Assembly (NCBI GenBank): GCA_028280565.1
Contig: JANQLQ010000007.1
Span: 1 to 55,152 of the forward strand
Direction of reading: 5' to 3'
DNA from: Fulvivirga sp.
Lineage (GTDB): Bacteria > Bacteroidota > Bacteroidia > Cytophagales > Cyclobacteriaceae
DNA: 55,152 bases
Positions within the stretch are counted from its first letter, which is position 1. Each line of letters opens with the position of its first letter. The notes under the pieces are model-generated. The model ran no database searches and had not been told where the DNA came from. It saw only the letters and a program-made list of their open reading frames with translations. A program made the translations under genes and the position numbers. This document shows, piece after piece, positions 6,501 through 50,508 of this stretch.

Positions 6501-7280
6501 ACCTGGGAAACCGATCCATTGCATTAGCAATCTCACGATCAATAAGATTCCGAACATGAGCAATGACCCAAGCCACAAGCTCTTTTTTACCATGGTTTCG
6601 AGCAAGAAATAGACCCCCATTAAGATCAGCGCAAAGGCCATGGTATAAAAGAAAATTATCCATCCACTTACCGAATGCTTTGAACGCAAGTAATCTTCGC
6701 TAAAGCTGACTTTAAATAGGCAGGTCCCATCTTTAAGGCAAACCGGCTCTCCTTTATCGTCTTCCATGTCATGGACAACGACTTGCTGATCCGCAAAAAT
6801 TTTAGGATTGTAGAGAGAAGTAACAAAATCGTTTTCAATCTTATAACCGCTGTAAATAGGTAACAGCGCAAATACTTCGAGGTCAGAATGGGTAAGTTCC
6901 CATTTCCTTGCCACGAACTGCTTTCTTTGGGACCGGGTAAACTTATAATCGTATTGGCCTCTTACCAGCCGGTAGTCTGGGACGAAGCGGTAGTCCGACC
7001 AATATACGAGGCTCCCGGACTTGTAAATGTAAAACAGCGGCCCTGCATATTCATTAACTTGCCAGAATTGAAATTTAGGATTTTGTTCTAAGATTTCCAG
7101 CACCGGCACCATACTTCGTTGGAGGTTGAGCACCTCCCTGGAAAGCCTATCGCTGATGAATTCTGCTTCATCCTCCACTAAAAAGTCTATTTCTTCACGG
7201 CCAACCCACTGGAACACCAGTCCTGCTATGAGAAATGGGATGGATAACAGTAACAGCCTATGTCCTACGTTGAATGTCAA
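3591..7280 (-). CDS. NtrY-like membrane sensor histidine kinase with several extracytoplasmic sensor segments
   Basis: The 1229-residue kinase has a C-terminal catalytic core. The H-box is VAHEIKNPLTPMK with phospho-accepting His near residue 1022, the N-box contains NNLLLNAIQAM, and the G-boxes are DNGVGI and GSGIGLAIAKHG. The residues around the H-box (AWREIAQQVAHEIKNP) match the NtrY-like subgroup. A HAMP-like linker containing DDEIGLMVGEYNRM precedes it. The N-terminal 900 residues hold a first membrane segment at about 8-25, a periplasmic region to about 215, a cluster of about eight membrane helices, a second extracytoplasmic region, further helices, and a third short sensor before HAMP. 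This is far longer than a usual kinase. The start codon is TTG, the first start-type codon after an in-frame TAA. No response regulator is adjacent. The stimulus is unknown; the downstream outer-membrane protein suggests envelope sensing. Confidence 0.88.
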   Translation of the reverse strand: MTFNVGHRLLLLSIPFLIAGLVFQWVGREEIDFLVEDEAEFISDRLSREVLNLQRSMVPVLEILEQNPKFQFWQVNEYAGPLFYIYKSGSLVYWSDYRFVPDYRLVRGQYDYKFTRSQRKQFVARKWELTHSDLEVFALLPIYSGYKIENDFVTSLYNPKIFADQQVVVHDMEDDKGEPVCLKDGTCLFKVSFSEDYLRSKHSVSGWIIFFYTMAFALILMGVYFLLETMVKKSLWLGSLLMFGILLIVRLLMQWIGFPGDMVEGSLFDSRYFASSSFNRSLGDLLINLACLCLVCLYVFRNHKNAFKKEVWHSLSQSMRLLLGTLVAGFGLLMFHVKYLVFQTLYHNSRVTFDINRSLEFDGNRIIVFVIFLVSMLSIFFIFHSAYEAVHRLFSRRRQLILVFGLGALVFSLINIFLQQVFWPALIVGSGVYFVLSVTKLPASMVTLKYTTFLYFFVYIIGGALLGAISIYQFENEREVERKKRFASQLLIENDNLGEYLLHEASGKIKRDLFIQSRMSSPFFSKEIVKEKIRQVYLSNYFDKYDIDIYLYNAAGRSLENTSQGLSPEEIQQFDAADYRTSYDGIYFINNLGGDVSKRYINFIEIKKRGITVGYIIIDLVLKRIIPESVYPELLVDHRFLTPYQNANYSYAVFENAKVTYSSGDFNYLLDFDENLLDDPILYRRSLMGAGFWHTGVKDASGRVIVISSDDHPFSDIVSNFSFLFLVQVFTILVFTGLYALYFSLQNESLNYSAKIQLYLNIAFFLPLFAVSATTLSLINSSFESEVNYEYYKKAESISTNVSEDLNNYVNDITADPEELRTELAQISKYSGADVNLFNTQGRLIASSQPLIYENDLLSSYINPVAYSLIRESRENAHILEESVGELNYNTTFFAVRSFDKGNLIGIVSIPYFQSEYNLEQSQITVLTNVINVFTFVFIVFLVVSYMAAKWLTFPLRFITQKLKKTTLTGLNEPLSWDADDEIGLMVGEYNRMLDNLEDSKKALARSEKESAWREIAQQVAHEIKNPLTPMKLTLQHLNRKLVAKGEEENMNRPINTLLQQVQTLDDIASSFSSFAKMPIPEHERYELTHVLKNAVSLHDAQKNLYIDLQIKEEPVYTVGDEQLMGRIINNLLLNAIQAMDGSNKQQVYVTLLRVSARKVRLEVKDNGVGIADEIHNKIFIPNFSTKETGSGIGLAIAKHGVEHAGGKIWFETELGRGTSFFIELPSEN

Positions 7281-7435
7281 AAATCGAAATTAAAGGTTTA
7301 GCCTGGCCAAACCGATCAGCCTAGGCAACCATTTTCGTTAGGACAGTAAGCCCTACTTATGGCTGAAGTTAAACCAACGATCTATAAATAGATGTACCTA
7401 AACAGTCCGGCTAGGCTAAATATAACGTATTTGGA

Positions 7436-7813
7436 TCAATTCCCGTATTGCCGGTCGAAGTCTATTCCCCCGAAAAAGTGAAGAAACAAGATACGAGAGT
7501 ATCTAAAACTCAAAGGGAGTAATAACAAAACACTACCCCCGATACCGATAAAGTAGGTGGATAAAGAAAAGTCGCCGAGTACGGTCAGCGCAACTCCCAC
7601 GGTAGTGAAGATGGCGACGGAAAACGCATAGCTGATATACATTGCGCCAAAAAAGAACCCGGGCTCTCGCTCAAAATGAAGACCACAGACAGGACAGTCT
7701 TCATTCATTTTAAAGAATTTTGGTAGGTTATAAGCACTGTATGGGAACATATTCCCCCTCCTACATCGCGGACATTTACCATGCAATATGGCGTTTCCTT
7801 TGGTGTTTGGCAT
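7436..7813 (-). CDS. DUF983 family membrane protein
   Basis: The 125-residue protein has two cysteine pairs near the N-terminus (CPRC and CPVC, about 22 residues apart) that look like a zinc- or metal-binding knuckle. They are followed by the EPGFFFGAMYISYAF stretch diagnostic of DUF983, and then two hydrophobic helices. It is the last gene of the respiratory operon. Its ATG lies inside the end of the preceding gene, a 38-nt overlap; starting at the next methionine would delete the first cysteine pair, so the overlap is probably real. DUF983 genes are often found near cytochrome oxidase genes, and a role in oxidase assembly or metal handling is an inference from that location. Confidence 0.85.
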   Translation of the reverse strand: MPNTKGNAILHGKCPRCRRGNMFPYSAYNLPKFFKMNEDCPVCGLHFEREPGFFFGAMYISYAFSVAIFTTVGVALTVLGDFSLSTYFIGIGGSVLLLLPLSFRYSRILFLHFFGGIDFDRQYGN

Positions 7814-8033
7814 TATTCTCTTTACTTTTTTTATACCACAAGTATCCGACTACGGCTATGGCTAGGTAAGGTGTTACAAATAAATAAAGAATCCCAAAAT
7901 TGAGGCTCGCCCCTATTCCTACTTCTCCATTACTCACATTGTTTTCAATAGTAGCCCTACACATAGCACATTGCGCAAATGAACTCATCGTAGGTATTAG
8001 CCACGAAAACAACAAGAATACTATCTTTTTCAT
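7776..8033 (-). CDS. Small CAMC-motif membrane protein of the oxidase operon
   Basis: The 85-residue protein begins with a signal peptide or first helix (about residues 1-20). A Cys-Ala-Met-Cys motif follows directly (QCAMCRATIENN), then a second hydrophobic helix (about 45-68) and a lysine/arginine-rich tail. CxMC-type motifs can bind copper or form a redox disulfide, and the position after SCO-like and DUF420 genes suggests a part in loading or assembling the oxidase; this is inference. The gene overlaps the DUF983 start by 38 nt in another frame, which suggests translational coupling. I do not recognise a named family. Confidence 0.75.
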   Translation of the reverse strand: MKKIVFLLFSWLIPTMSSFAQCAMCRATIENNVSNGEVGIGASLNFGILYLFVTPYLAIAVVGYLWYKKSKENNAKHQRKRHIAW

Positions 8034-8280
8034 CTTCCTTACTGATTATGATCTTCCTGCTCCCCGCTTTTAAACGATCCAAAATTACATGTTTTGTAGG
8101 TAACGATCGTATACGGTCATTACTTTCTGGATCCTATCTTTAAAACGCAGTTTATACATCTTTTGTTGGCCATATTATTTCTCAAGGAGTTGCTGCGAAT
8201 CCTGATAAATAGTGAGTTAGATTATGCGCTTTCCATGCACGGATAACTCACCCCTACCACCTAACAATTACAATACACAC

Positions 8281-8811
8281 TCACGAATAATAAGGACTGA
8301 TCATCAAATAAACCACTACGCCCGTGACGGCCACATACAACCAAATAGGAAAGGTGACCCTAGCCAGTTTCTTATGCTTGTCAAACCGTTCTGCCAAAGC
8401 TCTTACAAAAGTGAACAGGACCAATGGAATGACCGCTATGGAAAGTAAAATATGGCTGATCAAAATGACAAAATAGACTATTCTTAAACCCCCGGTACCC
8501 CCGTATGGAGTGGATTCACTGGTTATGTGGTATATAATGTACATCACCAAAAACAGGGCAGACAAGACCAGGCATACTTTCATGAGGGTTTCGTGCAGTT
8601 TAATTTTCCTGTTTTTGATCGCCCATAAAGCGATGACCAACAACACGGCCGTGACCCCGTTTGTGGTAGCATAAATGGGAGGCAGGAATGAGAAGTCATA
8701 GCCCTCGATCTTTACACCGAAAAGTATGGCTACGGCCAGTGGAATGACTATGGACAGCCCTATGATGAGCTTATTATATTTTGTGTCTTTATTCGCTATG
8801 GCTTCACTCAT
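8281..8811 (-). CDS. DUF420 family membrane protein (oxidase-associated)
   Basis: The 176-residue protein has five predicted membrane helices and conserved histidines within or next to them (LHETLMK, YIIYHIT, SHILLS). This is the pattern of DUF420, a family related to Bacillus CtaM/YozB, which is needed for maturation of some heme-copper oxidases. The start overlaps the end of the upstream SCO-like gene by 8 nt, so they are likely co-translated. Gene order (coxIV, SCO-like, DUF420) supports a role in oxidase maturation, probably heme or copper insertion in the membrane; the exact step is not shown by the sequence. Confidence 0.85.
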   Translation of the reverse strand: MSEAIANKDTKYNKLIIGLSIVIPLAVAILFGVKIEGYDFSFLPPIYATTNGVTAVLLVIALWAIKNRKIKLHETLMKVCLVLSALFLVMYIIYHITSESTPYGGTGGLRIVYFVILISHILLSIAVIPLVLFTFVRALAERFDKHKKLARVTFPIWLYVAVTGVVVYLMISPYYS

Positions 8812-9325
8812 CTTCCAACAATATTTTTGTCTCTACAATCAGGCGGTCCACTTCCGCCAAGTCAGTGGAATAATATCCTCTTATTACACCGTTCCTATCG
8901 TGCAAAATGAATTGGTTTAATGTATCGGTCACAAAATCACAATGCATAGACCGTTTGAATTCCGTGGAATCCAACACGGTTATCTCGCCTATCTCTTGCG
9001 GTCTCAAGCCAAACGGCGTAAACGTAAAATTATCAGGAAAAACGGCAACCAAGCGTCGCTGGATATTGGTGAGATCATTAGCCTGGAAGGTGTTGTTCTC
9101 ACGAAAAAAGACAGTGACATTGGCTTTTTCACCCTTGTAGCGCCCCGTATTTACCACATAGGGCACTCCTTTGTACACGCATTCGTGAAAAGGCGCTTTC
9201 ACTCCTTGCGCATAGTACACTGGGATTGAAAACTCGTTACTCCCAAATAATTTCAGGAAAACATAGATAACAACCGGTATGGCCAATATGGCGAGAAGTA
9301 TAACACCTTTTACAATTCCTTTCAT
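8804..9325 (-). CDS. SCO1/SenC-like protein lacking the copper-binding CxxxC motif
   Basis: The 173-residue protein has an N-terminal membrane anchor (residues 5-25) and a thioredoxin-like periplasmic domain. Its last third (FILHDRNGVIRGYYST, then DRLIVETKILL) matches the C-terminal pattern of SCO proteins, which deliver copper to the CuA site of oxidase subunit II. The usual CxxxC copper ligands are absent: only two separated cysteines are seen, in HECVYKG and MHCDFV. It may therefore be a redox or scaffold variant rather than a copper donor. It lies between coxIV (76 nt upstream) and DUF420 (8-nt overlap), which supports an oxidase-assembly role. Confidence 0.7.
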   Translation of the reverse strand: MKGIVKGVILLAILAIPVVIYVFLKLFGSNEFSIPVYYAQGVKAPFHECVYKGVPYVVNTGRYKGEKANVTVFFRENNTFQANDLTNIQRRLVAVFPDNFTFTPFGLRPQEIGEITVLDSTEFKRSMHCDFVTDTLNQFILHDRNGVIRGYYSTDLAEVDRLIVETKILLEDE

Positions 9326-9401
9326 CCAAGATCCTTAACCTCCAGGCCAAAGATAAAGATCAACTTTCACCTATAGAGATTACACTTTTGTGAACTTCTT
9401 C

Positions 9402-11159: not shown

Positions 11160-12053
11160 CTAGATCATATCCAATAAATAAGCGATCTGCACTATGGGTA
11201 AGTATAAGAACGACCCAAACATAATTCGCAAAGCAGACTTTCTTGATCCATTTTTCATTAAAGCGAAAGTCTGGCTTAAAAATAATACACCGCATATCGT
11301 CACCACTACTGCGGAGTCTATGCCGGTGATACCAAATTTGGCAGGTAATAACCCTAAAGGGACCAAGAACAACGTATAGATCATGATCTGTATGGCGGTA
11401 TTTAGATCTTTTTGTCCGCCAGAGGGCAACAGCTTAAAACCTGCTTTTTTGTAGTCTTCATCAGCTACCCAGGCAATCGCCCAAAAATGCGGGAATTGCC
11501 AGATAAACTGTATACCAAAAATGATCAAGGCTTCGTAGGTGATCATTCCTGTCACCGCGGTCCATCCTAACAAAGGTGGCAACGCCCCGGGGATTGCCCC
11601 CACAAAGACCGCAATAGGGCCCACCCGTTTTAGAGGGGTATATACAAAGCTGTAAAGTACCATGGACAGCAGTGATAACAGGGTGGTGAGTGTATTCGTG
11701 TACAGGGTAAGTATTGTCAACCCTATGCCCGCGATTACCATGGCAAAGATCGCCGCTTCTTTCACGGATAATCTCCCTGTTGGCAGTGGCCTGTCCATGG
11801 TACGGGACATTAGCTTATCCAGGTCTTTTTCTATGATCTGGTTGATCGTGATCGACGCGCCAGAAACTAAGAACCCGCCTAAACACAGCCAAGCTAAGTG
11901 TGCCCAATTTAAATGACCTCCGCTCGCCAGCACATAGCCGAATCCACAGGAGAAAGCCACCAAAAAGGAAAGCCTGAATTTAACCAGCTCCATGTAAGCG
12001 CTAATTTTGGCTGTGATCAATGCACCGTATGATCCGTATGTGCTTGTTACCAT
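11160..12053 (-). CDS. ctaB: Protoheme IX farnesyltransferase (heme O synthase)
   Basis: This UbiA-family prenyltransferase of 297 residues attaches a farnesyl group to heme B, giving heme O, the precursor of heme A. The first prenyl-diphosphate/Mg-binding motif is NQIIEKDLD, where the usual first aspartate is glutamate; the second region contains WVADEDYKKAG. About nine membrane helices are visible. The frame is open further upstream, but that extension overlaps the heme A synthase gene and looks random. The ATG at 12053 overlaps the stop of ctaA as TAATG, so the two are translationally coupled. Confidence 0.93.
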   Translation of the reverse strand: MVTSTYGSYGALITAKISAYMELVKFRLSFLVAFSCGFGYVLASGGHLNWAHLAWLCLGGFLVSGASITINQIIEKDLDKLMSRTMDRPLPTGRLSVKEAAIFAMVIAGIGLTILTLYTNTLTTLLSLLSMVLYSFVYTPLKRVGPIAVFVGAIPGALPPLLGWTAVTGMITYEALIIFGIQFIWQFPHFWAIAWVADEDYKKAGFKLLPSGGQKDLNTAIQIMIYTLFLVPLGLLPAKFGITGIDSAVVVTICGVLFLSQTFALMKNGSRKSALRIMFGSFLYLPIVQIAYLLDMI

Positions 12054-23184: not shown

Positions 23185-24432
23185 TTAATAATGACATTTT
23201 GAACACTCAAGGCCTCCAATGTCTTCTACTTTCAGGGCCTCTTTGCTTTCCGCATCGTGAAGTTCCACTAACTTATCATAGTAGGCGTTCCCCTTCGTGT
23301 TCACCTCTGTCTGCCTGTGGCAATCAATACACCAGCCCATGGTCAATAAAGAATGCTGGCGGACTACCTCCATTTCTTCAATAGGACCATGGCAATCCTG
23401 GCACTCAATATTCCCGACTTGTACGTGCTGGGCATGGTTAAAGTAAGCCAAGTCGGGAAGGTTGTGGACCCGTACCCATTCTATAGGCTTATCGTTTTCT
23501 ATGGCCGCGTATATCTTTTGTATCTCGGGTGATTCCGTTTTGATAGCGCTATGACAATTCATACAGATATTCGGAGAAGGGATATTGGCACTTTTACTTT
23601 TCCTTACTCCTGTATGACAGTATTGACAGTCTATTTCATATTGCCCGGCATGTAATTCATGCGAAAAGGCGATCGGTTGCTTCGGAGCATAATCGACTTG
23701 CACCCCTACGGCGAATAGCTGGTTGATCACTACTTTGAAAACAATGGCGGTAAACACAAAAGTGACAAGAAAGATAAATGGTTTGCTTTTTACGAGCCCG
23801 TCGAAACTAAACGTAGGATTTACAATTTCCCTGTCGTCCTCATCCAGTTCACCGCGTTGATTTAAGTATTTCCTCAATACGGAGGTGATCAAGATCAACA
23901 CCAACAAGATAAGCACAAGCACCACGACCAGCCCGATCATGATCGCATTCAAATAGAACGAAGGGATCGCATCCCCGGCAGGCTGTGCTCCGTCTCCAGC
24001 TGCCGCTACGTCTGCCACTACCTCGGGACCTGCTTCCGTCTCCGCTTTAATATACGCTAAAATGGAGAGGATCTGATCACGGCTAAACGTTGGAAAAGCC
24101 GTCATCTGGGTCGGTTGGTATTCGTCCCATAATTCGTTGGCATACTCATCGCCGTCAGCGATCATTTTTTGAGAGTTCCACACAAAGTTGACGATCCAAT
24201 CGATGGAAGGCGCACGGTCATAGACATTTTTCAACGCCGGGCCCACCAGCTTCTCATGCACCTTATGACAACTTTGGCAGTTTCCTTTAAAAAGAGATTC
24301 ACCTTCTGAGATCCGTGCTTCTTCAGTAGGGATCTCTTCATCCTGGGCATAACTGGTATAATGAGAAAAGGAAAGCGTTATGAGAAACAGCAGAAAAAAT
24401 AAAACGCGGGTCACTGTTACTTTTTGCGTCAT
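23185..24432 (-). CDS. actA: Alternative complex III multiheme cytochrome ActA
   Basis: The 415-residue cytochrome carries six CxxCH heme sites. One (CQSCH, about residue 53) is in an N-terminal mono-heme domain after a signal peptide. Five (CQYCH, CMNCH, CQDCH, CIDCH and a final CSKCH two residues before the end) are in the C-terminal pentaheme domain. Two membrane helices separate the domains, at about 154-180 and 216-236. ActA passes electrons from ActB to ActE or to the oxidase at the periplasmic face. It is the first gene of the respiratory operon, and a good promoter lies about 55 nt upstream of its start codon. Confidence 0.93.
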   Translation of the reverse strand: MTQKVTVTRVLFFLLFLITLSFSHYTSYAQDEEIPTEEARISEGESLFKGNCQSCHKVHEKLVGPALKNVYDRAPSIDWIVNFVWNSQKMIADGDEYANELWDEYQPTQMTAFPTFSRDQILSILAYIKAETEAGPEVVADVAAAGDGAQPAGDAIPSFYLNAIMIGLVVVLVLILLVLILITSVLRKYLNQRGELDEDDREIVNPTFSFDGLVKSKPFIFLVTFVFTAIVFKVVINQLFAVGVQVDYAPKQPIAFSHELHAGQYEIDCQYCHTGVRKSKSANIPSPNICMNCHSAIKTESPEIQKIYAAIENDKPIEWVRVHNLPDLAYFNHAQHVQVGNIECQDCHGPIEEMEVVRQHSLLTMGWCIDCHRQTEVNTKGNAYYDKLVELHDAESKEALKVEDIGGLECSKCHY

Positions 24433-41413: not shown

Positions 41414-41769
41414 TGATGACTGAAGAGCTGGTAAAACGTATTCACCTTGTTTGATACCAAGTAATGTGGATGATCGCATCATCATTGAGCAAACAATATT
41501 TAGTCCCGGTCAGCTCGGTATCGAATGAGCGGGTACAGTCTTACGTAGTAAGGCTTAGGTGGAAATCAAAGCCATTATCCCCCGGAACCATTGGGCTTAT
41601 GGAAAAGAGCTTGGTGGATCCGGTTCCTATTTGGACAGGGTGCATCCTCTCGATACCAGGTGATTTCGTGACAATATACATGGCGTCGCTGTCGGTTACT
41701 CGTTCTAGCTTTTCAGCTCGGCCAGGGAATGAAAAGGTACCAAAGCATGGTACATACGCTCCATTCTTG
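41414..41769. other. 356-nt spacer, possible coding remnant
   Basis: No confident gene. On the minus strand one frame reads through most of the interval with a single in-frame TAA at 41541-41543, and both flanking parts look protein-like (FSFPGRAEKLERVTDSD; DTELTGTKYCLLNDDA). This could be a decayed gene or chance. No terminator for the flanking genes was clear. Confidence 0.3.
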
Positions 41770-43353
41770 TCAGTTAAAAAACAAATACAAAAACAGCATA
41801 ACCGCAAACAAGGTGCTCCAAGCTATCATTACCTTATTGGATACCCGGTAAGACAGTTGACGATAGGATTGTTTTAAGCTAGGGAAAGAAACCTTATCCT
41901 TCCTGGTGCTGGTCAACCCCACAAAGATGACTAGGATGACAATAGCTACAAAAAGGTAAAAAGATACTAACAAGAAGTGAGGCCATACCCCCTCATTAGG
42001 TGTACCGGTCAGTTGGAGTATTCCTACCAGTAGGCTGATCAAAGAGCCAAAGACTAGCCCGGCATTTGCGGCCTGTGATGTCATTCTTTTCCAAAGCACG
42101 GCCAGCAAAAATACAGCGGTCATTGGCGGAGCTAGGTAGCCAAGAATGGCTTGGAAAAGACTGAACAGGTCCATTCCACTGATCCTGGCCAAGCCCAGCG
42201 CAATGAGGATGGCGAGAAAAGCACCCATTAGTGTAACCAGCCTGCCCACGGTGACAAGTTGCTTAGGGCTGGCATTTTTATTGAACCTCCTGGCATAGAT
42301 ATCGAGTGTAAATACTGTGCTGAATGAGTTTAAAGCCGAATCAATGGTACTCACCAGCCCTGCGATCAGTACGGCTATGATAAAGCCGATCATACCCGTG
42401 GGTAAAAGCCCGGTGACCATCGTCATATAAGCCTCGTTTTCATCCCCGAGACCGGGATATAACAAGTAACAAATAATGCCCGGCAGGATGAACAGGGGCA
42501 CATCCAAGATCTTTAGCCACCCGGTGAGATTAGTACCCAACTGCCCCTGTTCAAGGTTTTTGGCACCCAATACGGATTGCACCATACTCTGGTCTGTACA
42601 CCAGAACCAAACGCCCAGGATAGGATAGCCGAGGACAATGGCCACCCAGGGATAATCCGGGTTATCTATGGGTAAGAACAGCTTCCAGTAATCTCGGGGA
42701 ACCTGTGTAGCCAGTGCATCGAACCCTCCAAGTTTAATAATACCTGCAATGACCAGGATGAACGATGCCGTGATCAATAGGATCATCTGGAACACATTGG
42801 TGACCGCAATGGCTTCCAGTCCACCGGCAAAAGCGAAGAAGGTGGCCAAAAGCATAAGCGTGACCAACGAAAGCCAAAGCGGCCAATCCATTATTTGGCT
42901 GATGAGTAATCCCCCGGCATACAGCGTAAGGCCTAGCCAGGAGATGAGAATGGTCACCAGCGAATACCAGGCAAGCAATTCACGCGTGGTGCTATTAAAA
43001 CGTTTTCCCATGAATTCAGGCAGTGTGCTAACGCCGGTGTTTTTATAATGCGGGGCAAAAACCAAGGCAAGCAAGCAGATAAAAATAAAGGCATACCAGG
43101 AAAAATTACCTGCCACGATCCCCGTAGTGTACCCAATGGCACACGAGGCGATCAGCATAGAAGGCCCCACATTTGTACCCCACATAGTAAGTCCTATGCT
43201 GTACCATTTCAAGGTACCTCCCGCCAAAAAGTAGTCTAGACCCGTGTTTTTCTTTTTTCGGAAACTGATATACGCGCCAATACTCATCAGCACCAGCAGG
43301 TAGGTGATCACGACCCCAAAATCAAGCGCCCGTAGGTGTTCATGAATTTCCAT
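41770..43353 (-). CDS. Sodium/solute symporter (SSS family)
   Basis: The 527-residue protein has 13 or so membrane helices and SSS-family motifs: DYFLAGGTLKWYSIGLTMWGTNVGPSMLI in the first repeat, FAFAGGLEAIAVTNVFQM, and LVSTIDSALNSFSTVFTLDIY, which carries the Na2-site serines and threonines. It imports a small organic solute, probably a sugar or sugar acid, with sodium. It lies 58 nt after the enolase-superfamily gene and ends the reductase-dehydratase-symporter unit. The substrate is inferred only from context. Confidence 0.92.
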   Translation of the reverse strand: MEIHEHLRALDFGVVITYLLVLMSIGAYISFRKKKNTGLDYFLAGGTLKWYSIGLTMWGTNVGPSMLIASCAIGYTTGIVAGNFSWYAFIFICLLALVFAPHYKNTGVSTLPEFMGKRFNSTTRELLAWYSLVTILISWLGLTLYAGGLLISQIMDWPLWLSLVTLMLLATFFAFAGGLEAIAVTNVFQMILLITASFILVIAGIIKLGGFDALATQVPRDYWKLFLPIDNPDYPWVAIVLGYPILGVWFWCTDQSMVQSVLGAKNLEQGQLGTNLTGWLKILDVPLFILPGIICYLLYPGLGDENEAYMTMVTGLLPTGMIGFIIAVLIAGLVSTIDSALNSFSTVFTLDIYARRFNKNASPKQLVTVGRLVTLMGAFLAILIALGLARISGMDLFSLFQAILGYLAPPMTAVFLLAVLWKRMTSQAANAGLVFGSLISLLVGILQLTGTPNEGVWPHFLLVSFYLFVAIVILVIFVGLTSTRKDKVSFPSLKQSYRQLSYRVSNKVMIAWSTLFAVMLFLYLFFN

Positions 43354-43411
43354 TACCTCTCAATGCCGGTCATAGAATAATGAATAAATACCAGGATAGG
43401 CATATTAGCTT

Positions 43412-44593
43412 TTACTTCCAAACTTGTTTGCCTAATATCCTATTCTCCTTTTCCAGCTTGTGCCAATCCACCTGGACCCCTATGCCCGGCACCCCCGGCA
43501 AAACAAAATACCCTTGCTGTACCACGGGTTTTACTGAAAAAAGGTCTTCCATAGGTTTGATGATCGGGGCCAGGAATTCCAGCATGGCATTGTTCCCCAA
43601 AGCCGCCACAAACTGGCAGTTGATGTACGATGTACCTCCAGAGGTGAAATCCAACCCAGCGCTCTTGGAAAGTCCAGATATTTCAAACCAATCTTTTATA
43701 CTATTGATGTGGCCTGCAATGGGCTGCAAATGCTCCACGCCTGACCGGATAATAGAAGGGAATACTTTAGCCGACCGTTCAGATTCTCCATAGGCGATCT
43801 TTATGCTAGACCGCGCACATAATTGCTCTATCTCGTACAAAGAAGCGGATTGTATGGGCTCCTCTAGCCACGCTATGTCCAATCCTTCCAGTTCCCGGAC
43901 AAGCCCTAGGGCTTTGGGCAGGTTCATGGATTGGTTAGCATCTATGGCCAGGTTCGTATCGGGATGCAGGGCCTCCCTAACGCTGGCGATGCGCTGAACA
44001 TCCTCCTTGGTAGAGGAATGGAGCCCCCCAAACTTAATCTTGATGGTATCATACCCCTCGGCTTCCCATTCGAGGCATTCGTTGATCAATTCTTCACCAA
44101 TAATATTAACACCGCCACCACTGGCATAGGCTTTTACTTTCGTGCTGCTGGCAGCAAGATACTGATGTACAGGCATATTGTTTCTTTTGGCTACCAGGTC
44201 GTAAAATGCCCTATCTAAATGCCCTAAGGCCAATGCTGCACCTCCCCTGAACCCTTCGTTGCGGATGCTCCAGAAAAGTGTATTGTACAATGATGCGTAA
44301 GAAGTTTTCCCTGCATTTAAAAGTACAGGAGCAAAGTAGTTTTCAAGGTAACCAATAGAGTTTATGGGGTATTCACACTCCCCTTCGAAGCCACTTTCGT
44401 CGGTAATCCTTAAAAAGCAAGCCCTGTATTCTTTGAATGGGCCCATCGTAGCATCGTAAAATGGCCTCGGGTATTTAATAGGAGTAATACTTTGAACAGC
44501 TACCTGCTTAATGTGAAAGTTCTCTCTATCCAGGGGAAAGGTCAAGACGTCTGCAGGTTGGGTTTTGGGATTGATAGGAACGTCTTCCATCAT
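43412..44593 (-). CDS. Enolase-superfamily (mandelate racemase/muconate lactonising-type) enzyme
   Basis: The 393-residue protein has the N-terminal capping domain (about 1-150) and the barrel. In the barrel I see KIKFGG (KxK acid/base motif), metal ligands in AIDANQS, AWLEEPI and AYGESE, and HLQPIAGHINSIKDW. The usual His at the seventh strand is replaced by GLDFTSGG, so the second acid/base may differ from classical MR enzymes. Members dehydrate acid sugars or isomerise substrates. It overlaps the aldo/keto reductase gene by 4 nt (ATGA type). The pair suggests oxidation of an aldose to an aldonate followed by dehydration; the sugar is not identified. Confidence 0.85.
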   Translation of the reverse strand: MMEDVPINPKTQPADVLTFPLDRENFHIKQVAVQSITPIKYPRPFYDATMGPFKEYRACFLRITDESGFEGECEYPINSIGYLENYFAPVLLNAGKTSYASLYNTLFWSIRNEGFRGGAALALGHLDRAFYDLVAKRNNMPVHQYLAASSTKVKAYASGGGVNIIGEELINECLEWEAEGYDTIKIKFGGLHSSTKEDVQRIASVREALHPDTNLAIDANQSMNLPKALGLVRELEGLDIAWLEEPIQSASLYEIEQLCARSSIKIAYGESERSAKVFPSIIRSGVEHLQPIAGHINSIKDWFEISGLSKSAGLDFTSGGTSYINCQFVAALGNNAMLEFLAPIIKPMEDLFSVKPVVQQGYFVLPGVPGIGVQVDWHKLEKENRILGKQVWK

Positions 44594-45513
44594 TTGACCT
44601 GGTCCGTTAGTTCATCAAAAATTTCACGAGGCAGCACACCTTGCCGGCAATCGGCCAGGGTACTCTTCAACTGTGCCATATTCCTGGCGCCTATCACTAA
44701 ATGGTCCACCTCCTTGATAGATAATAAATAGCGGTGAGCCAGGGTAGAAAGCTCTAAACCATGTTCTTTAGCTATTTTATAGGCCTTTTGTGCATTTTCA
44801 ACAGACTTTAGCGATAGCCAACCCGGCGGGTCTTGAATGTATTGCGGGTAGCGGTTACCCAATAGCCCCATATTCAGGGCGCTCCCTTGGTACAGTATTA
44901 GCCCCTGCTGCCTGAAATAGGGGATCTCTTTTTTTATTCCTGTCAAAGTGCAAGCATTGAGGTTATTGAATCCCATGACGACGTCAAAAACCCCTTTTTC
45001 TATGTAAGGGTAATAAGCGGTAGACACTATTCCCCCAAGCCCAATGGACTTGACTTTCCCAGTTACGGTCAAGCTCTCTAAGAAAGCCACGACTTCCCGG
45101 ATCATTTCAGCAGGTACCTTTTGCGGCTCGTGGAGGAAAAGAAGATCCAGTTGGTCACACCCCAGCCTTGCCAGGCTATCTTCTATACTTTTTTCCATCA
45201 CCTCTAAGTCGTAGTTATTAAGGCTGTCATCATCCGCCTGGCCGGGCAATTTACCTACCTTAGTACTGACAATTGGTTTACCTCCCCTCCATTGGCCCAG
45301 CACCTCGCCTACTATCTTCTCAGCGTTTTGATAGGCAGGCGCAGTATCTAACCTTTCTATACCTTGCTCAAGAGCGTACAATAGGGTCCGAAGGGATTCC
45401 TCCTTATCAATTTCGCCCCAAGCACCCCCTAGTCCAGCTGTACCAAGCACCAACCCGGGAGTTTGTAAATCCTCGCGATAAGAAGGTAATTGCTCTATCG
45501 TTTTTCCATTCAT
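44590..45513 (-). CDS. Aldo/keto reductase (possible sugar dehydrogenase)
   Basis: The 307-residue AKR has its catalytic tetrad visible: Asp and Tyr in RLDTAPAYQNAE, Lys in VSTKVGKLPG, and His in LLFLHEP. The cofactor region near the end contains HLVIGARNMAQL. The sequence resembles the group that includes L-fucose and D-threo-aldose dehydrogenases, which oxidise aldoses to lactones. It is the first gene of a three-gene unit with the dehydratase-like enzyme and the symporter. A divergent AraC gene and a 48-bp repeated element lie upstream. Confidence 0.88.
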   Translation of the reverse strand: MNGKTIEQLPSYREDLQTPGLVLGTAGLGGAWGEIDKEESLRTLLYALEQGIERLDTAPAYQNAEKIVGEVLGQWRGGKPIVSTKVGKLPGQADDDSLNNYDLEVMEKSIEDSLARLGCDQLDLLFLHEPQKVPAEMIREVVAFLESLTVTGKVKSIGLGGIVSTAYYPYIEKGVFDVVMGFNNLNACTLTGIKKEIPYFRQQGLILYQGSALNMGLLGNRYPQYIQDPPGWLSLKSVENAQKAYKIAKEHGLELSTLAHRYLLSIKEVDHLVIGARNMAQLKSTLADCRQGVLPREIFDELTDQVK

Positions 45514-45931
45514 TTTATGCTAACATCACAGTTCATGCCCTTATACTGTATAAATCTATCAATGGTTCCAAGGATCGATTTCTAAGGTTTACGTACGGGA
45601 GGTCGTAACAAAGCAAAAAGAATATACATTGGCATTCTTCAATTATTTTACTTCTTTATTACATTATTTTGACTACCTATGAACCTCTACAGCTACTTTT
45701 GTCCGTAGGAATAACACCTCGAAAACTCTTTCAATAAAATGTATTGATGGCGCAGGGTCTTTCACTATCCAGGAATGGGCTTTTCCTATCAATAGACTGA
45801 CGGTTCTTTTCTATGACGTACAATTTCTGATCATTTTATAGTACTTTCTTATCAGCTTGTATACAAGACAAGAAATAAATTGCTAATTTCTAGTTAGTTT
45901 TTCACATTAATCCAACTAAAACGAGCTGGCA
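45514..45931. other. 418-nt divergent control region
   Basis: This spacer separates the minus-strand reductase gene from the plus-strand AraC gene. It contains the 48-bp element at 45626-45673. It also holds a possible plus-strand promoter for the AraC gene, TTTG (45668-45671) then TACTTTTG (45694-45701), with a slightly long 22-nt spacing. No coding frame is convincing. Confidence 0.55.
45626..45673 (-). promoter_or_regulatory. 48-bp repeated upstream element, copy A
   Basis: ACATTGG, then AATTAT, TTCTT and ACATTATTTTGAC recur in the same order and spacing at 48756-48803. The two copies agree at 39 of 48 positions, and 13 nt at one end are identical. Copy A lies 112 nt upstream of the aldo/keto reductase start codon, next to the AraC gene. 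An AraC operator is the simplest explanation. Confidence 0.6.
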
Positions 45932-46807
45932 ATGAAAACTTTGATCGAAAAATGGTCGCATTCCCAGGAGCATTCTTTCATCATTAAGCAATACCCGGTG
46001 ACCAAACAACCGACCGACCCACAAGAGGTTTTAATGCGGTTGCATGACGAATACGAGGTCACGATTATCACCGGTTGTAGTGGCAAAAGGTTTATCGGGA
46101 ACACCATTGAAAACTTCTCGAAAGAGGAACTATTCCTGATCGGTCCGCAGGTACCTCATTCCATCCAGCTTGATGACGGTGAAGAAGGGGATGTGATCAC
46201 GATTCATTTCCTGGAAAATGCCTTCGGCCAAGGTTTCTTCGATCTCCCGGAAAACGATTCCATCAGCCGGCTGTTGCAAGAGGCTAAATTAGGTGTAGGC
46301 TTTAGTACCAAGGTAGCCAAGCACTTTCACAAAAAGCTGGCACGGCTTTTCTCCCTCAAGCCATTTGAAAGAATGATTGCCTTTATCAAGATCTTACAGC
46401 AACTATCGCTGGCGCAGGAAAGAAGGGTACTTTCCAGCCACGGGTTTACCCCCATCAATAATCATAAGGACTACGTGATCGTGAATAAAACGTACGAATA
46501 CATTATCAACCGTTTTGAAGACCACCAGATCACGCTAGACGAGATCTCCAGCTATGTCAATATGTCGCCGGCTACATTTTGCCGGTACTTTAAAAAACAC
46601 TTCCACAAAACGTTTACCGGCTTCCTAAACGAGGTGCGCATAGGGCACGCTTGCAAATGCCTGCAAGAAACCAACAAAAACATTGCCGAGATCGCTTTTG
46701 CTTCCGGGTATAACCAGCTCACCCATTTCAACCGGCAGTTCAAGCGGATCATGGGGTACAGTCCTAAGGCGTATAGAAAGGCGTTGAACGGGGATGTGGT
46801 TAGGTGA
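45932..46807 (+). CDS. AraC-family transcriptional regulator
   Basis: The 291-residue protein has an N-terminal cupin-like ligand domain (about 15-140). The C-terminal double helix-turn-helix (about 190-285) contains DEISSYVNMSPATFCRYFKK and EIAFASGYNQLTHFNRQFKR. The latter is the AraC signature. It is divergent from the reductase-dehydratase-symporter unit and converges with the beta-helix gene, so it probably controls one or both units in response to a sugar or sugar acid. The shared 48-bp element is its likely target. Confidence 0.93.
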   Translation: MKTLIEKWSHSQEHSFIIKQYPVTKQPTDPQEVLMRLHDEYEVTIITGCSGKRFIGNTIENFSKEELFLIGPQVPHSIQLDDGEEGDVITIHFLENAFGQGFFDLPENDSISRLLQEAKLGVGFSTKVAKHFHKKLARLFSLKPFERMIAFIKILQQLSLAQERRVLSSHGFTPINNHKDYVIVNKTYEYIINRFEDHQITLDEISSYVNMSPATFCRYFKKHFHKTFTGFLNEVRIGHACKCLQETNKNIAEIAFASGYNQLTHFNRQFKRIMGYSPKAYRKALNGDVVR

Positions 46808-46810
46808 TTG

Positions 46811-46841
46811 AAGGCTAGAAGTCAGCAGTTACTTCTAGCTT
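46811..46841. terminator. Hairpin between converging genes
   Basis: CTAGAAGT (46815-46822) and ACTTCTAG (46831-46838) form a perfect stem with an 8-nt loop just after the AraC stop; outer AAG/CTT can extend it. There is no T-run on either strand, so termination is uncertain. The sequence also has the word-like character (GAAGTCAGCAGT) of the filler repeats noted at 40079. Confidence 0.45.
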
Positions 46842-46896
46842 CCGACTCGTCAAAATCACTTGATAATCCCGGCCAGGGGCAAGCTCAAGGAATAAC

Positions 46897-48711
46897 TCAA
46901 TAATCCACTTTTAAATCTTTATAGGCTGCTTCCAAACCGACCTCCTTTATGATCTCAGCGCCATTTTTTTGGTTTTTATTTTGAATATTGTTTTTCATTA
47001 TGATGATACCGGCCTGGTTAAATTTGTACATGGTGGAGGTGCCGTTGTCGATGATGTTCTCCTCGATGATCATGGGTTCTTTTTCGCTGCCACCACTTCT
47101 TTCATCGCAGTATATAGCGCAGATGATCTTTTGCCCGAGCAAGGTCGGCTGTGGCAGGTCGTGGATGTAGTTGCGGTAGATCTTAGTACCCGGCTGGTAG
47201 GATAAGGTGTAGATGGCAGCGCCGTCGTTCATTAGTTGGACTACCCTGCTGATAGCATTGTACGCGATGAAGTTATTAGACATCGCATTAGGCCGGTCCG
47301 TCCAGCCGAAGCCTACGCTTATGCCCGAATAAGGTAAGTCTTCGATGACATTATGTGTTATTTGGATTGATTTGGGGTAGCCTGCGGCTATACCCACACA
47401 TCCCGAATAATCTGCTGCAGCTCGCTTAATGATATTGTTTGAAACCACTACATGCTCACATATTTCTTTTCTATCAGCAGGATTATAAGGCACATGAAAT
47501 TCGGTGCCTTCATCTTGTGTGAACTTGCCAATAGAAATAGCATTACCCGCAATGTCATGGAACGTGTTACCTTCTATCCTGCTAGCGGACACACCATGGT
47601 GAAAATCAATACCGGTAGCTCCAAGGTTGCGAAAATTGTTACGTTCAAAGACAATTCCCGCTGCATTGGCCACATATACGGCGGCTGGTGGCCTTTTTAC
47701 ATACTGTTCGTTACGTGGCGTAGCTTTATAGTTATGCTGGCCAGTTTGACCGTTCAAATAGCCATAGCGGCTGGGATGATCCCAATTGGAATAGCGGAAT
47801 GAGAGTCCTTTGAAGGCCAGGTTCCTCACTTCCTTCCCGCGTTCTCCTTTTACGATCAAAAGTGTGTCTGTATCCGGATGGATAGCTTCTATCTTGCTGG
47901 GGTCCCCACTAGCCAGGGGCTTGTAATAAAGTAGACCTTCCTTTGCATCGAAAAACCACTCCCCCTCTTGGTCTATGAAACTCTTCTCGTTTTCGAAATA
48001 AGCCCGGTGTGAGGGCTTGTGTACAGGATAAGGCCGGTTAAACAGGACCTGGGATTCATTGTCATGGAAAGTAATGTGGCTATATTTTAAATAGCTGATC
48101 CCTTCGACTTGTATGCTTTTGACCCGCAGGTAGGATTCTGCCCAGGACTGGAAAAGCTTAAGTTCCAACCCTTCTTTTCCCTGTAAGCGGCTGAAATCAC
48201 CTTTAAGAACCAGCTCTTGTTTATCAAAATCCCATCCTTTTGTTTCTAAAAATATCCCTTTATCCGGGTATCGGGCCCGGATTGCCCTTTTCCCGTTTAC
48301 ATACAACTGCCTAAAGTTTTCAGCTTTCAATGGTGCCTGGTATAGCCCTGGGGTGGTGGCAGGTTTCCAGCCATACACCTGCTTCCCACCACTTATAATT
48401 ACCTCACCGGCGGTATCTCCCACATATTTTACGTAAAACTTACCCCTCCCTCCATCCAGGCTGGTAAAGACCAATGGCTTATCCAGGAAATATGTGCCCT
48501 CACCGATATGTATTATGATGTCCTCTTTTATTCCCCCGTTTAACTGCCTAACGGCTTCTTTCGCTTTTTCTATGGTTTGAAAGGGGGCGGCTTCTGTCCC
48601 TTGATCACTGTCAGACCCGTTAACGGAGACGTACAGATGATGCTGGGCATGAGAAGTAAAGCACAGTAAAAAAATGAACAGGGTGGAGCATGGCCTTAGA
48701 AGATCTGTCAT
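46897..48711 (-). CDS. Right-handed beta-helix glycan-active protein (GH141-like candidate)
   Basis: The 604-residue secreted protein has a signal peptide ending TSHAQ. A DUF1565/pectate-lyase-like start follows (LYVSVNGSDSDQGTEAAPFQTIEKA), then a conserved RQLYVNGKRAIRARYPDKG segment, and a long parallel beta-helix with repeats such as IVFERNNFRNLGATGIDFHHG, ASRIEGNTFHDIAGNAIS and VVSNNIIKRAAADYSG. This resembles GH141-type enzymes, known for alpha-fucosidase or xylanase activity on complex glycans, but assignment needs a search. The 48-bp element lies 44 nt upstream of its start. Confidence 0.75.
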   Translation of the reverse strand: MTDLLRPCSTLFIFLLCFTSHAQHHLYVSVNGSDSDQGTEAAPFQTIEKAKEAVRQLNGGIKEDIIIHIGEGTYFLDKPLVFTSLDGGRGKFYVKYVGDTAGEVIISGGKQVYGWKPATTPGLYQAPLKAENFRQLYVNGKRAIRARYPDKGIFLETKGWDFDKQELVLKGDFSRLQGKEGLELKLFQSWAESYLRVKSIQVEGISYLKYSHITFHDNESQVLFNRPYPVHKPSHRAYFENEKSFIDQEGEWFFDAKEGLLYYKPLASGDPSKIEAIHPDTDTLLIVKGERGKEVRNLAFKGLSFRYSNWDHPSRYGYLNGQTGQHNYKATPRNEQYVKRPPAAVYVANAAGIVFERNNFRNLGATGIDFHHGVSASRIEGNTFHDIAGNAISIGKFTQDEGTEFHVPYNPADRKEICEHVVVSNNIIKRAAADYSGCVGIAAGYPKSIQITHNVIEDLPYSGISVGFGWTDRPNAMSNNFIAYNAISRVVQLMNDGAAIYTLSYQPGTKIYRNYIHDLPQPTLLGQKIICAIYCDERSGGSEKEPMIIEENIIDNGTSTMYKFNQAGIIIMKNNIQNKNQKNGAEIIKEVGLEAAYKDLKVDY

Positions 48712-48755
48712 CCTAATTTTTAAGTTTAATCACCATGATAAAGGAAATCATCAGC

Positions 48756-48803
48756 ACATTGGTATGCTGTAATTATCTTATTTCTTCCTAACATTATTTT
48801 GAC
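48756..48803 (-). promoter_or_regulatory. 48-bp repeated upstream element, copy B
   Basis: This is the second copy of the element at 45626-45673, in the same orientation relative to the downstream minus-strand gene. It lies 44 nt upstream of the beta-helix start codon, in the 132-nt gap after the GH51-like gene. It probably marks an internal promoter or operator in the glycan cluster. Confidence 0.6.
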
Positions 48804-48843
48804 CAGGACATTCAATATAGCATCGACCCACGATACTTGAAAA

Positions 48844-50508
48844 TCACTCTTCTATCACCTCGATCACACTCACTGACCTTGCCGGTAGTTTACAAATGAT
48901 CACCTCGTCTTTAAATTCTAATTCGGATTCTTGCAGGCAGGCGTAACGGAAAGGCTCGTTGCTACAAGGATCATCATTGTCGTAGTTACCTGCCAGGCTT
49001 CTTACCACAGCTTTGGAGAAAGGTACATCCAGCGCAGAGAGGTCCAGTTGTACCTCTTGTCCCGATGTAAAATGACGGTTAATGATGTGAAAATAGACCC
49101 TGCCTCTACCACGCGTGCAAATGGCATCGAGGTAAGCTACTTTTTCTACTTCGGCGATACCATTAAAATCAAAGGGTTGATTATACGTTGGGATGTTCAC
49201 TGTTTCCAGTTTTAATAGGTCTTTACCGTGATAATTGGAATACAGCGCAGTCACTTGTCCAGTAGGAATAGGATAAGGCTCAAAAGCCGCATCGGGTGAG
49301 ACCCGAATAGCGGTAATGCCCCAGGAATTGCCTACTAACATGGATTGTATCCCCACATGGAAAAAGTCTCCAGATCGCATCATGGCATGCAAAAACCCGG
49401 CGGCTCCTACCCCTTTGGCCCAATAGGATCCAAGGTTATCGGGGTCTGTGGAATCCACGTTCCACCAGCCGTTCCAATTCCATTCGGTCATGGCTATAGG
49501 ATAACCAGGGGCCCTAGCAGTACTAAACCTATTGTTATCTAACACAGAAAACCCGTTACTATCGATTTCGGGTACCGAGGCCCACCCTCGGAAGATCTCC
49601 TGGTCTGAAAGGGAATCCCTGTGCGTTTCTACCCCGTCCTTTTTTACATACCTGATCTTCCAGGGCTTATAGTAATGCAAGGCCAGGTAGTCGATCTTTT
49701 CTCCAAACCTATCCCGAAGCGGGGTGGTTATCCCTTCACAATTGCCATCTGCAATGATCTTAAGGCCCGGGGCGAGCTGCCGAAAAGCATCGATATAGGC
49801 TTCCAGGCAGCGCAAATAGTGTTCTTTAGGGCCGGGCGCTATCTCCCCACGGATAGGCAGCTCTTTTTTACTCATGACCCACGGCTCATTGGCTATTTGG
49901 ATATATTTTACAGGGTATGGCTCGGGATGACCATTTTTTACCCGTAGCTCCGTCCATTTTTCGAGGTCACCGGGCAAGTCTACCCCCGCCTCCAAGGCAC
50001 AATAAGCGATCAGCCCGGATTCGTGGGCTATGGCCTCTTCCAATGACTTACGTTTATGATAGGCGTCTCCAAAGTTGACTACTAAGATCAGTTCAGCGCC
50101 CAGCTCCTCGGCCAGCTTACCGGCTTCATCATAGCCGAAGTTGGCCGAAACGGTGTCACCATTTTTACCTACATAAGCAGGCCTTCTTATTTTTTCGTCC
50201 ATGGCATAATCCACCATAGTGGTCCAGTCTACATGCTCTACGTCACTTCCCCCGGGGAATCGCAGCACCGGGATGTTCATGCCTTTCATTAATTCCAACG
50301 TGCCCTCTTGCAATTCATGTGTGCCCGGGACTAACGCCGCTTCTGGTCCGCCTTCACCATGCCAACTCGGTTTTTCTAGGAATTGGCCGAATAAACGACT
50401 ATCGATAGTGGCTAGTTTTTCGTCCTTAACGATCAATTTGATTTTTGGGGTTCTCTCCGTGCAACTGGCGATCAAACATACAAACAGGTAACATAGGATA
50501 TTCTTCAT
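48844..50508 (-). CDS. GH51-like glycoside hydrolase lipoprotein
   Basis: The 554-residue product starts at ATG 50508 with a lipoprotein signal (CYLFVCLIASC). The barrel shows VLRFPGGSD, a candidate acid/base glutamate in YIQIANEPW (the Asn-Glu pair of clan GH-A) and a candidate nucleophile in IAMTEWNWNGWW. A C-terminal beta-sandwich follows (about 460-554). This matches GH51 alpha-L-arabinofuranosidases or GH39-like relatives; the family cannot be fixed by eye. It follows the sulfatase by about 56 nt. Confidence 0.75.
   Translation of the reverse strand: MKNILCYLFVCLIASCTERTPKIKLIVKDEKLATIDSRLFGQFLEKPSWHGEGGPEAALVPGTHELQEGTLELMKGMNIPVLRFPGGSDVEHVDWTTMVDYAMDEKIRRPAYVGKNGDTVSANFGYDEAGKLAEELGAELILVVNFGDAYHKRKSLEEAIAHESGLIAYCALEAGVDLPGDLEKWTELRVKNGHPEPYPVKYIQIANEPWVMSKKELPIRGEIAPGPKEHYLRCLEAYIDAFRQLAPGLKIIADGNCEGITTPLRDRFGEKIDYLALHYYKPWKIRYVKKDGVETHRDSLSDQEIFRGWASVPEIDSNGFSVLDNNRFSTARAPGYPIAMTEWNWNGWWNVDSTDPDNLGSYWAKGVGAAGFLHAMMRSGDFFHVGIQSMLVGNSWGITAIRVSPDAAFEPYPIPTGQVTALYSNYHGKDLLKLETVNIPTYNQPFDFNGIAEVEKVAYLDAICTRGRGRVYFHIINRHFTSGQEVQLDLSALDVPFSKAVVRSLAGNYDNDDPCSNEPFRYACLQESELEFKDEVIICKLPARSVSVIEVIEE

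Follow-up and report, generated by a model that had tools for sequence, protein, structure and literature searches.

Why do two intergenic segments on either side of a gene for an AraC-family regulator carry much the same 48 bp, and are they binding sites of that regulator? The question arises in a stretch of 55,152 nucleotides from Fulvivirga sp. (GenBank assembly GCA_028280565.1, contig JANQLQ010000007.1), which we call the window. An earlier note on this DNA had claimed that positions 45626-45673 (copy 1, W1) and 48756-48803 (copy 2, W2) agree at 39 of 48 positions, with the final 13 nt free of any mismatch; recomputation returned exactly these figures and coordinates. Its account of the surroundings was borne out as well: W1 lies 112 nt from a minus-strand gene start at 45513, W2 lies 44 nt from another at 48711, and the araC gene (45932-46807, plus strand) is situated between them. 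A single minus-strand run of genes for an aldo/keto reductase, an enolase-superfamily enzyme and a symporter stands behind W1, and a gene for a glycoside hydrolase of family GH141 stands behind W2 (Table 1). We consider it probable, at roughly 80%, that W1 and W2 are promoter-proximal operators from which the adjacent AraC activates transcription in the class II manner; the catabolic operon and GH141 would then form a single local regulon. What the sequence offers in support is the repeat itself, the spacing and register of its parts, the number of copies, the occurrence of like sites in two relatives and a -7 box at a fixed distance.

The likeness of the two copies exceeds what base composition would give. 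When the non-coding DNA of the window (15 segments, 4275 nt, outside every reading frame of at least 120 amino acids) was compared with itself, the top 48-mer match was 39, against a maximum of 33 in 60 dinucleotide-preserving shuffles. W1 and W2 were also the top-ranked de novo 36-mer pair in this DNA (29/36 versus 24/36 for the next unrelated pair). A BLAST search of the whole genome (9,052,587 bases) with 111 bp around copy 1 returned W1 and W2 only at E <= 0.001. The likeness extends past the 48 bp, since TTnCTTTR occurs downstream of each copy in identical register.

Read on the minus strand, each copy contains two half-sites (YAARATAATK) in direct repeat, their cores beginning exactly 21 bp apart. 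The 48-bp block is made up of half-site 1, a spacer, half-site 2 and then an additional common CCAATGT, and the reading shared by both copies is GTCAAAATAATG...TAARATAATT. Direct half-sites about 21 bp apart with an AraC-family gene nearby are what is expected of an AraC-family direct-repeat operator; the E. coli sites araI1 and araI2 are likewise spaced by 21 bp.

The position of the half-sites relative to a promoter was examined with the Bacteroidota sigma-A -7 box, which is described for Flavobacterium psychrophilum as TAnnTTTG at -12 to -5 (PMC9723704). Matches to TA--TTTG were summed over five sites (W1, W2 and the sites A1, J1 and J2 of relatives, described below) at offsets 31-99. They peaked at 24/30 at 55 nt from half-site 1, the next offset reaching 17, and when the downstream DNA was shuffled 5000 times, 24 was reached at no offset between 40 and 75. 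In some sites this register was noticed by eye ahead of the test, which allows for the selection of the offset; the consensus comes from published work. A further site, J4, stood outside the five-site test and has TTTATTTG at offset 55 (5/6 letters), a match obtained by chance at a fixed place in 28 of 2000 shuffles. All six catabolic sites therefore have a -7-like box at offset 55, with 4 or 5 of 6 letters each (29/36 in total); three decoy matches in genome G508, which encodes a relative of the regulator, have 1, 2 and 2 of the 6 letters there. Placing the box at -12 puts the half-sites at about -67 to -58 and -46 to -37, so that the operator centre falls near -52. The operator would thus occupy a fixed, class II-type position relative to the inferred start of transcription. 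A scan of 41600-49000 with the sigma-70 consensus (19 sites; 13.4 in shuffles, standard deviation 3.8) was left unused because that consensus is not of this phylum.

This geometry is close to that of E. coli araBAD, where the AraC half-sites araI1-I2 are described as a direct repeat that has its centre at -52.5 and reaches partly into the -35 region (PMC7408454); W1 and W2 also consist of direct-repeat half-sites, with an inferred centre of about -52. As in araBAD, the regulator gene sits beside its presumed target operon and encodes an AraC-family protein, with an N-terminal part that structure prediction suggests may be cupin-like; unlike araBAD, the half-site core here is AAAATAAT and the promoter box is of the Bacteroidota type. 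The 21-bp direct-repeat design as such is already known for AraC-type regulators of Bacteroides (PMC3870299, PMC3878776). Direct-repeat motifs with 21-bp periodicity are reported for AraC-family rhamnose regulators in Bacillales, Bacteroides and Enterococcus groups, Bacteroides RhaR (BT3768) among them (PMC3870299), RhaR being tied to a rhamnose operon, unlike the reductase-enolase-symporter operon and GH141 here. Sixteen hybrid two-component system (HTCS) regulators with predicted motifs are given direct repeats averaging 21 bp (PMC3878776). The HTCS of Bacteroides thetaiotaomicron share an AraC-type DNA-binding domain and repeats of about 21 bp with our case; as sensors they include histidine kinase and receiver domains, unlike the window regulator, which is a 291-amino-acid one-component protein. 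In the open-access literature searched, no description of this regulator, motif or gene set was found, nor did anything on this system emerge when papers on GH141 together with AraC, or on AraC operators of Flavobacteriia, were sought.

The regulator has the C-terminal double helix-turn-helix of its family (Pfam; predicted helices at 202-285). Its N-terminal part has no Pfam match; strands are predicted at 16-93 in a model with a mean predicted local distance difference test score of 67, made from a four-row alignment, and this strand-rich part of the model matches the AraC sugar domain 2arc (E 4.6e-5), so that the resemblance to E. coli AraC in this part is one of predicted fold only. The best whole-chain structure matches of the model were ToxT and Rns (ToxT: TM score 0.33-0.38, root-mean-square deviation about 15).

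The earlier note had made its proposal depend on conservation in relatives carrying the AraC. Three other genomes were found to encode an AraC of at least 56% identity, and two of them, an Allomuricauda metagenome-assembled genome (MAG) and Jejuia, have such sites, with the same architecture ahead of the same operon; conservation ahead of co-functional operons extends to these two genomes with the regulator, and no convincing site turned up beside the AraC relative in G508 or beside the paralog in the Fulvivirga genome. A half-site model with 21-bp spacing built from the window only, applied to the Jejuia locus L034 (20,858 bp), ranked J1 and J2 as the top two (19.4 and 18.5 bits; next 14.7). 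Among 300 shuffled versions of this locus, the top place attained the best score in 5, and the runner-up attained the second-best score in none. J1 and J2 also form the best de novo non-coding 36-mer pair of L034 (26/36; next 25/36) and are to that extent independent of the window. In Allomuricauda, A1 precedes the reductase start by 130 nt; the corresponding distance for the half-site pair of W1 is 128 nt. A six-site matrix scan of ten sources had J4 of Jejuia as its best non-training match (17.9). Directly behind J4 follow genes for reductase (3757-4692), enolase (4676-5854), symporter (5944-7527) and GH141 (7550-9334; Pfam GH141_M), whose products are 53%, 57%, 74% and 39% identical to those of the window, respectively; the enolase ortholog was placed in this stretch by a later search, after J4 had been scored. 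The two units of the window therefore form one contiguous run in Jejuia. Neither this arrangement nor the inner direct repeat or the fixed -7 box figures in the earlier note.

Genome-wide searches were made with two profiles, R1 (six sites including W1, W2 and A2) and R2 (70 positions from W1, W2, A1, J1, J2 and J4), scoring 150 first-look candidates per genome (150 of 1946 for R1 in the Fulvivirga genome). With R1, W1 and W2 scored 22.6 and 25.1 bits in their own genome and the next place 10.9; in four genomes, two strong matches each were obtained in G000, G487 and G488 (22.5-27.2 bits, all training sites), followed by at most 14.2. With R2 the six training sites scored 34-42 bits and the next place, which lacks half-site 1, 20.3. 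Training sites score high by construction, and the informative part is the gap to the remaining matches. A profile run under stricter filters on 58 relatives gave more than 18 bits in the Fulvivirga genome only, three others, G004 among them, reaching 16.7-17.8. The genome thus has two strong copies and none at random places, as the earlier note would have it, and because the genomes searched contain no comparable strong places elsewhere, the regulon looks local.

A number of lesser matches were rejected or not counted. The match at 23582-23629 of the window (16.2 bits) lies within a cytochrome c reading frame (23185-24432) and was put down to chance. On contig C165 of the same genome, 796-853 (20.3 bits with the longer profile) covers model positions 12-69 only, without half-site 1, and no frame of at least 60 amino acids lies between 540 and 1543. 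In G508, L047 11823-11853, downstream of the AraC gene (16.3; 15.0 bits with R2), has 1/6 -7 letters at 55 and was not counted. Nor were three matches (8.1-13.4 bits) that closely follow the 3' ends of AraC genes of 35-37% identity (L017, L028 and L030), the only ones in 30 loci. At two of these loci (L028 2379-2411 and L030 2372-2405), shortly past the 3' end of an AraC gene of 35% identity, CAAAACAG / YAAAATAG occurs with a spacing of 20 bp, not 21; the gene behind this repeat presumably encodes a product like the lactate-utilisation protein LldE.

Several observations weigh against the interpretation of W1 and W2 as class II operators of the neighbouring regulator. Single promoters contain more than one -7 box of equal score: W1 also has a 5/6 match at offset 50, A1 a tie at 64, and W2 further 4/6 boxes at 61 and 73. 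The best score in the Allomuricauda locus L033 was reached in 68 of 300 shuffles and the second-best in 7, which makes the evidence from this locus weaker, and the Allomuricauda pair was not recovered in the de novo comparison of non-coding 36-mers. A matrix from the A and J sites only placed W1 and W2 first and second in the 55,152 bp (20.9 and 14.2 bits; next 11.3), a partly circular result because those sites had been chosen with a window-trained model. With the A sites held out, A1 ranked first and A2 only third; with the J sites held out, J2 came first, J4 third and J1 outside the best eight places. The lead of J4 over the next non-training match is just 17.9 versus 17.3, the latter being a rejected match in a G508 gene (L048 6889-6919, within reading frame 5851-6966, 2/6 -7 letters), and by R1 J4 is weak (10.0 bits, E 8) and not significant genome-wide. 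Spacings other than 21 bp also score high in the AT-rich L034: 22 (19.0 and 18.1) and 17 (19.5), all within genes, and 26 and 29 (19.9 and 18.5), which overlap J1 and J2 themselves. Another rejected G508 match, L048 5033-5063, scored as high as J1 with the window half-site model (19.4) while lying inside frame 4803-5828 with 2/6 -7 letters at 55; single scores that high thus arise by chance in AT-rich DNA. Finally, no convincing site was found beside the G508 AraC relative (best 15.4 bits with R2, 11.7 with R1), and none on contig C57, which carries the paralog and is only 21.6 kb long.

The last two loci also bear on the strongest competing explanation, namely that the operator design is as described but serves another regulator, a paralogous AraC or an HTCS encoded elsewhere, with the neighbouring AraC as a bystander. 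The Fulvivirga genome does contain six matches to the regulator at E <= 1e-40, one of them 59% identical, and HTCS of Bacteroides are also reported to bind direct repeats about 21 bp apart (PMC3878776); two loci with close AraC relatives show no site. Against this, the sites accompany the close ortholog in Allomuricauda and Jejuia, the contig of the paralog is itself without a site, and in 57 other relatives, whose AraC match is no better than 2.5e-58, the profile gave the three matches at 16.7-17.8 bits and nothing above them, compared with 22.6 and 25.1 here (training sites). We therefore regard this explanation as unlikely. Close relatives of the regulator are in any case rare: 1 of 395 genomes in a phylum sample (the Fulvivirga genome itself, E <= 1e-80), 1 of 390 in an order sample (again itself), 3 of 397 in the family sample of Jejuia (Jejuia G488, G508 and G691, E <= 1e-75) and 1 of 71 in a sample of the genus to which the Allomuricauda MAG belongs (the MAG itself). 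In the relatives sample, no match in the other 97 genomes was better than 2.5e-58. The counts include the own or centre genome, the samples overlap, and in the large ones at most 6 candidates per genome were scored. A scan of genome contigs with the regulator gave three loci, of which two count as close: L033 of the Allomuricauda MAG (60% identity) and L034 of Jejuia (57%). The paralog on C57 (59%) and the G508 protein (56%) are further close relatives.

A second possibility, less probable again, is that a promoter segment was duplicated when an operon split or the units formed, and that the likeness reflects mainly descent instead of constraint. The single run behind one site in Jejuia makes copying a plausible origin of the second copy. 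The likeness, however, comes in blocks that match the half-sites and the -7 register, and these recur at the same positions in other genera, which argues that constraint acts, whatever the origin. That the repeats belong to an RNA element of a leader (riboswitch, attenuator or terminator) is very improbable: they are non-coding and upstream of related genes, and a small terminator-like hairpin (plus strand, 48752-48769) reaches into the end of copy 2, but the inferred transcription start lies downstream of the repeat and terminator-like hairpins number 7 against a shuffle mean of 7.7. Rfam found nothing above its curated gathering score in 45400-48950, the one match at E <= 1 being U6atac inside the GH141 gene (16.6 bits; gathering score 33). 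Mere chance likeness between AT-rich intergenic segments, which W1 and W2 both are, is practically negligible in view of the shuffle test and the recurrence in relatives.

If W1 and W2 are operators of the adjacent AraC, the following sequence of events can be envisaged. The two half-sites, 21 bp or two helical turns apart, would present the same face of the DNA, and a sugar-bound AraC dimer would fill both of them at W1 and at W2. Half-site 2 would adjoin the -33 position and be followed, at constant spacing, by a weak -7 box resembling TAnnTTTG. The downstream subunit could contact polymerase and bring it to a promoter whose -33 box is poor. GH141 (sugar release) and the symporter-reductase-enolase operon (uptake and oxidation) would then be switched on jointly. 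Binding by the adjacent AraC, activation and the inducer are what we infer here; of the earlier note's protein-binding site, probably the AraC operator, the site draws support from the copy number and the sites in two relatives, and its assignment to this AraC belongs to the inferred part. From the reductase and the enolase-superfamily enzyme one may expect that an L-sugar resembling L-galactose or L-fucose is oxidised and its acid dehydrated or cycloisomerised, and the inducer is probably L-fucose, L-galactose or a similar L-sugar.

Table 1. Features of the window and sites of relatives (positions are those of the window unless a locus is named; bits as given by the scans described in the text)
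Feature	Position	Strand	Remark
Repeat copy 1 (W1), putative operator ahead of aldo/keto reductase operon	45626..45673	-	39/48 match to copy 2
W1 half-site 1, CAAAATAATG	45662..45671	-	21-bp direct repeat with half-site 2
W1 half-site 2, TAAAATAATT	45641..45650	-	21-bp direct repeat; adjoins expected -33 region
W1 -7-like box, TTGCTTTG	45609..45616	-	5/6 letters of TAnnTTTG; inferred transcription start ~45604; fixed 55-nt offset (six sites, three genomes)
Repeat copy 2 (W2), putative operator ahead of GH141 gene	48756..48803	-	39/48 match to copy 1
W2 half-site 1, CAAAATAATG	48792..48801	-	21-bp direct repeat
W2 half-site 2, TAAGATAATT	48771..48780	-	21-bp direct repeat
W2 -7-like box, TTCCTTTA	48739..48746	-	4/6 letters; inferred transcription start ~48734; fixed 55-nt offset
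AraC-family regulator, 291 amino acids, proposed binder	45932..46807	+	Pfam HTH_18 87.3 bits (cut-off 33.6); HTH_AraC also above cut-off
J1, Jejuia	L034 9443-9473	-	Intergenic, ahead of minus-strand gene; 19.4 bits
J2, Jejuia	L034 4561-4591	-	Intergenic, ahead of minus-strand gene; 18.5 bits
J4, Jejuia	L046 3667-3697	+	Best non-training match, 17.9
A1, Allomuricauda	L033 3309-3339	-	Ahead of reductase-enolase-symporter operon; 15.1 bits
A2, Allomuricauda	L033 9892-9922	-	Adjoining araC; 15.1 bits
Candidate third site W3, TTTCTGATCA + TTTCTTATCA, araC promoter	45824..45854	+	21 bp apart; 9/10 self-match
Aldo/keto reductase	44590..45513	-	Best solved match an L-galactose dehydrogenase
Enolase-superfamily enzyme	43412..44593	-	Best solved match 3,6-anhydro-alpha-L-galactonate cycloisomerase
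Sodium:solute symporter	41770..43353	-	
GH141 beta-helix glycoside hydrolase	46897..48711	-	Best solved match BT_1002

The araC promoter itself contains a candidate third site, W3, a 21-bp direct repeat reading TTTCTKATCA. Its self-match at offset 21 was reached by 16 of 2000 shuffles, and offset 21 was the best among 15-29; in the hold-out scan W3 came only sixth, at 9.6 bits. A 19-nt stretch, TTATAGYACTWTYTWRTCA, is alike in the araC promoters of the window, Allomuricauda and Jejuia, its first base lying 96, 94 and 82 nt before the araC start, respectively. It holds a reversed half-site-like sequence, clearest in Jejuia, and is overlapped by W3. The araC-promoter sites A2, W3 and J3 are without a -7 box at offset 55; A2, first taken as an operator, also aligns with the araC promoters and is now read as one of their sites, for which reason it was dropped from R2. 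As a lead, these sites suggest that the regulator may control its own gene. With about 180 bp between W3 and W1 a loop would be possible. One can go further and picture W3 as a distal site for both self-control and control of the divergent operon, that is, an araO2-araI-like repression loop in Bacteroidota with its own half-site code, serving an oxidative L-sugar route (GH141, L-galactose-dehydrogenase-like reductase and enolase-superfamily enzyme); we hold this to be doubtful.

Some neighbourhoods of regulator relatives are recorded in their own right. The Allomuricauda MAG has tandem AraC genes of the regulator's subfamily (L033 10001-10861 and 10929-11786; 60% and 46-47% identical). The Fulvivirga paralog (L036 10588-11439, on C57) shares its contig with an L-fucose dehydrogenase (NF052481) and with a reading frame that has no NCBIfam match and which we take to be a GH29-like fucosidase. 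The same genome contains near-identical non-coding repeats (L036 at about 4806-4890 and 11496-11580; L037 at about 3162-3245 and 3283-3366; 31-35/36 per 36-mer), the first of them near a contig end.

The gene switch proposed here is clear but of an ordinary kind. It would tie GH141 to the reductase-enolase-symporter operon by regulation and so provides a testable hypothesis on the substrate; the promoter and regulator would form a compact, likely inducible pair for Bacteroidota, and an araBAD-like promoter geometry proved recoverable from sequence alone in a distant phylum.

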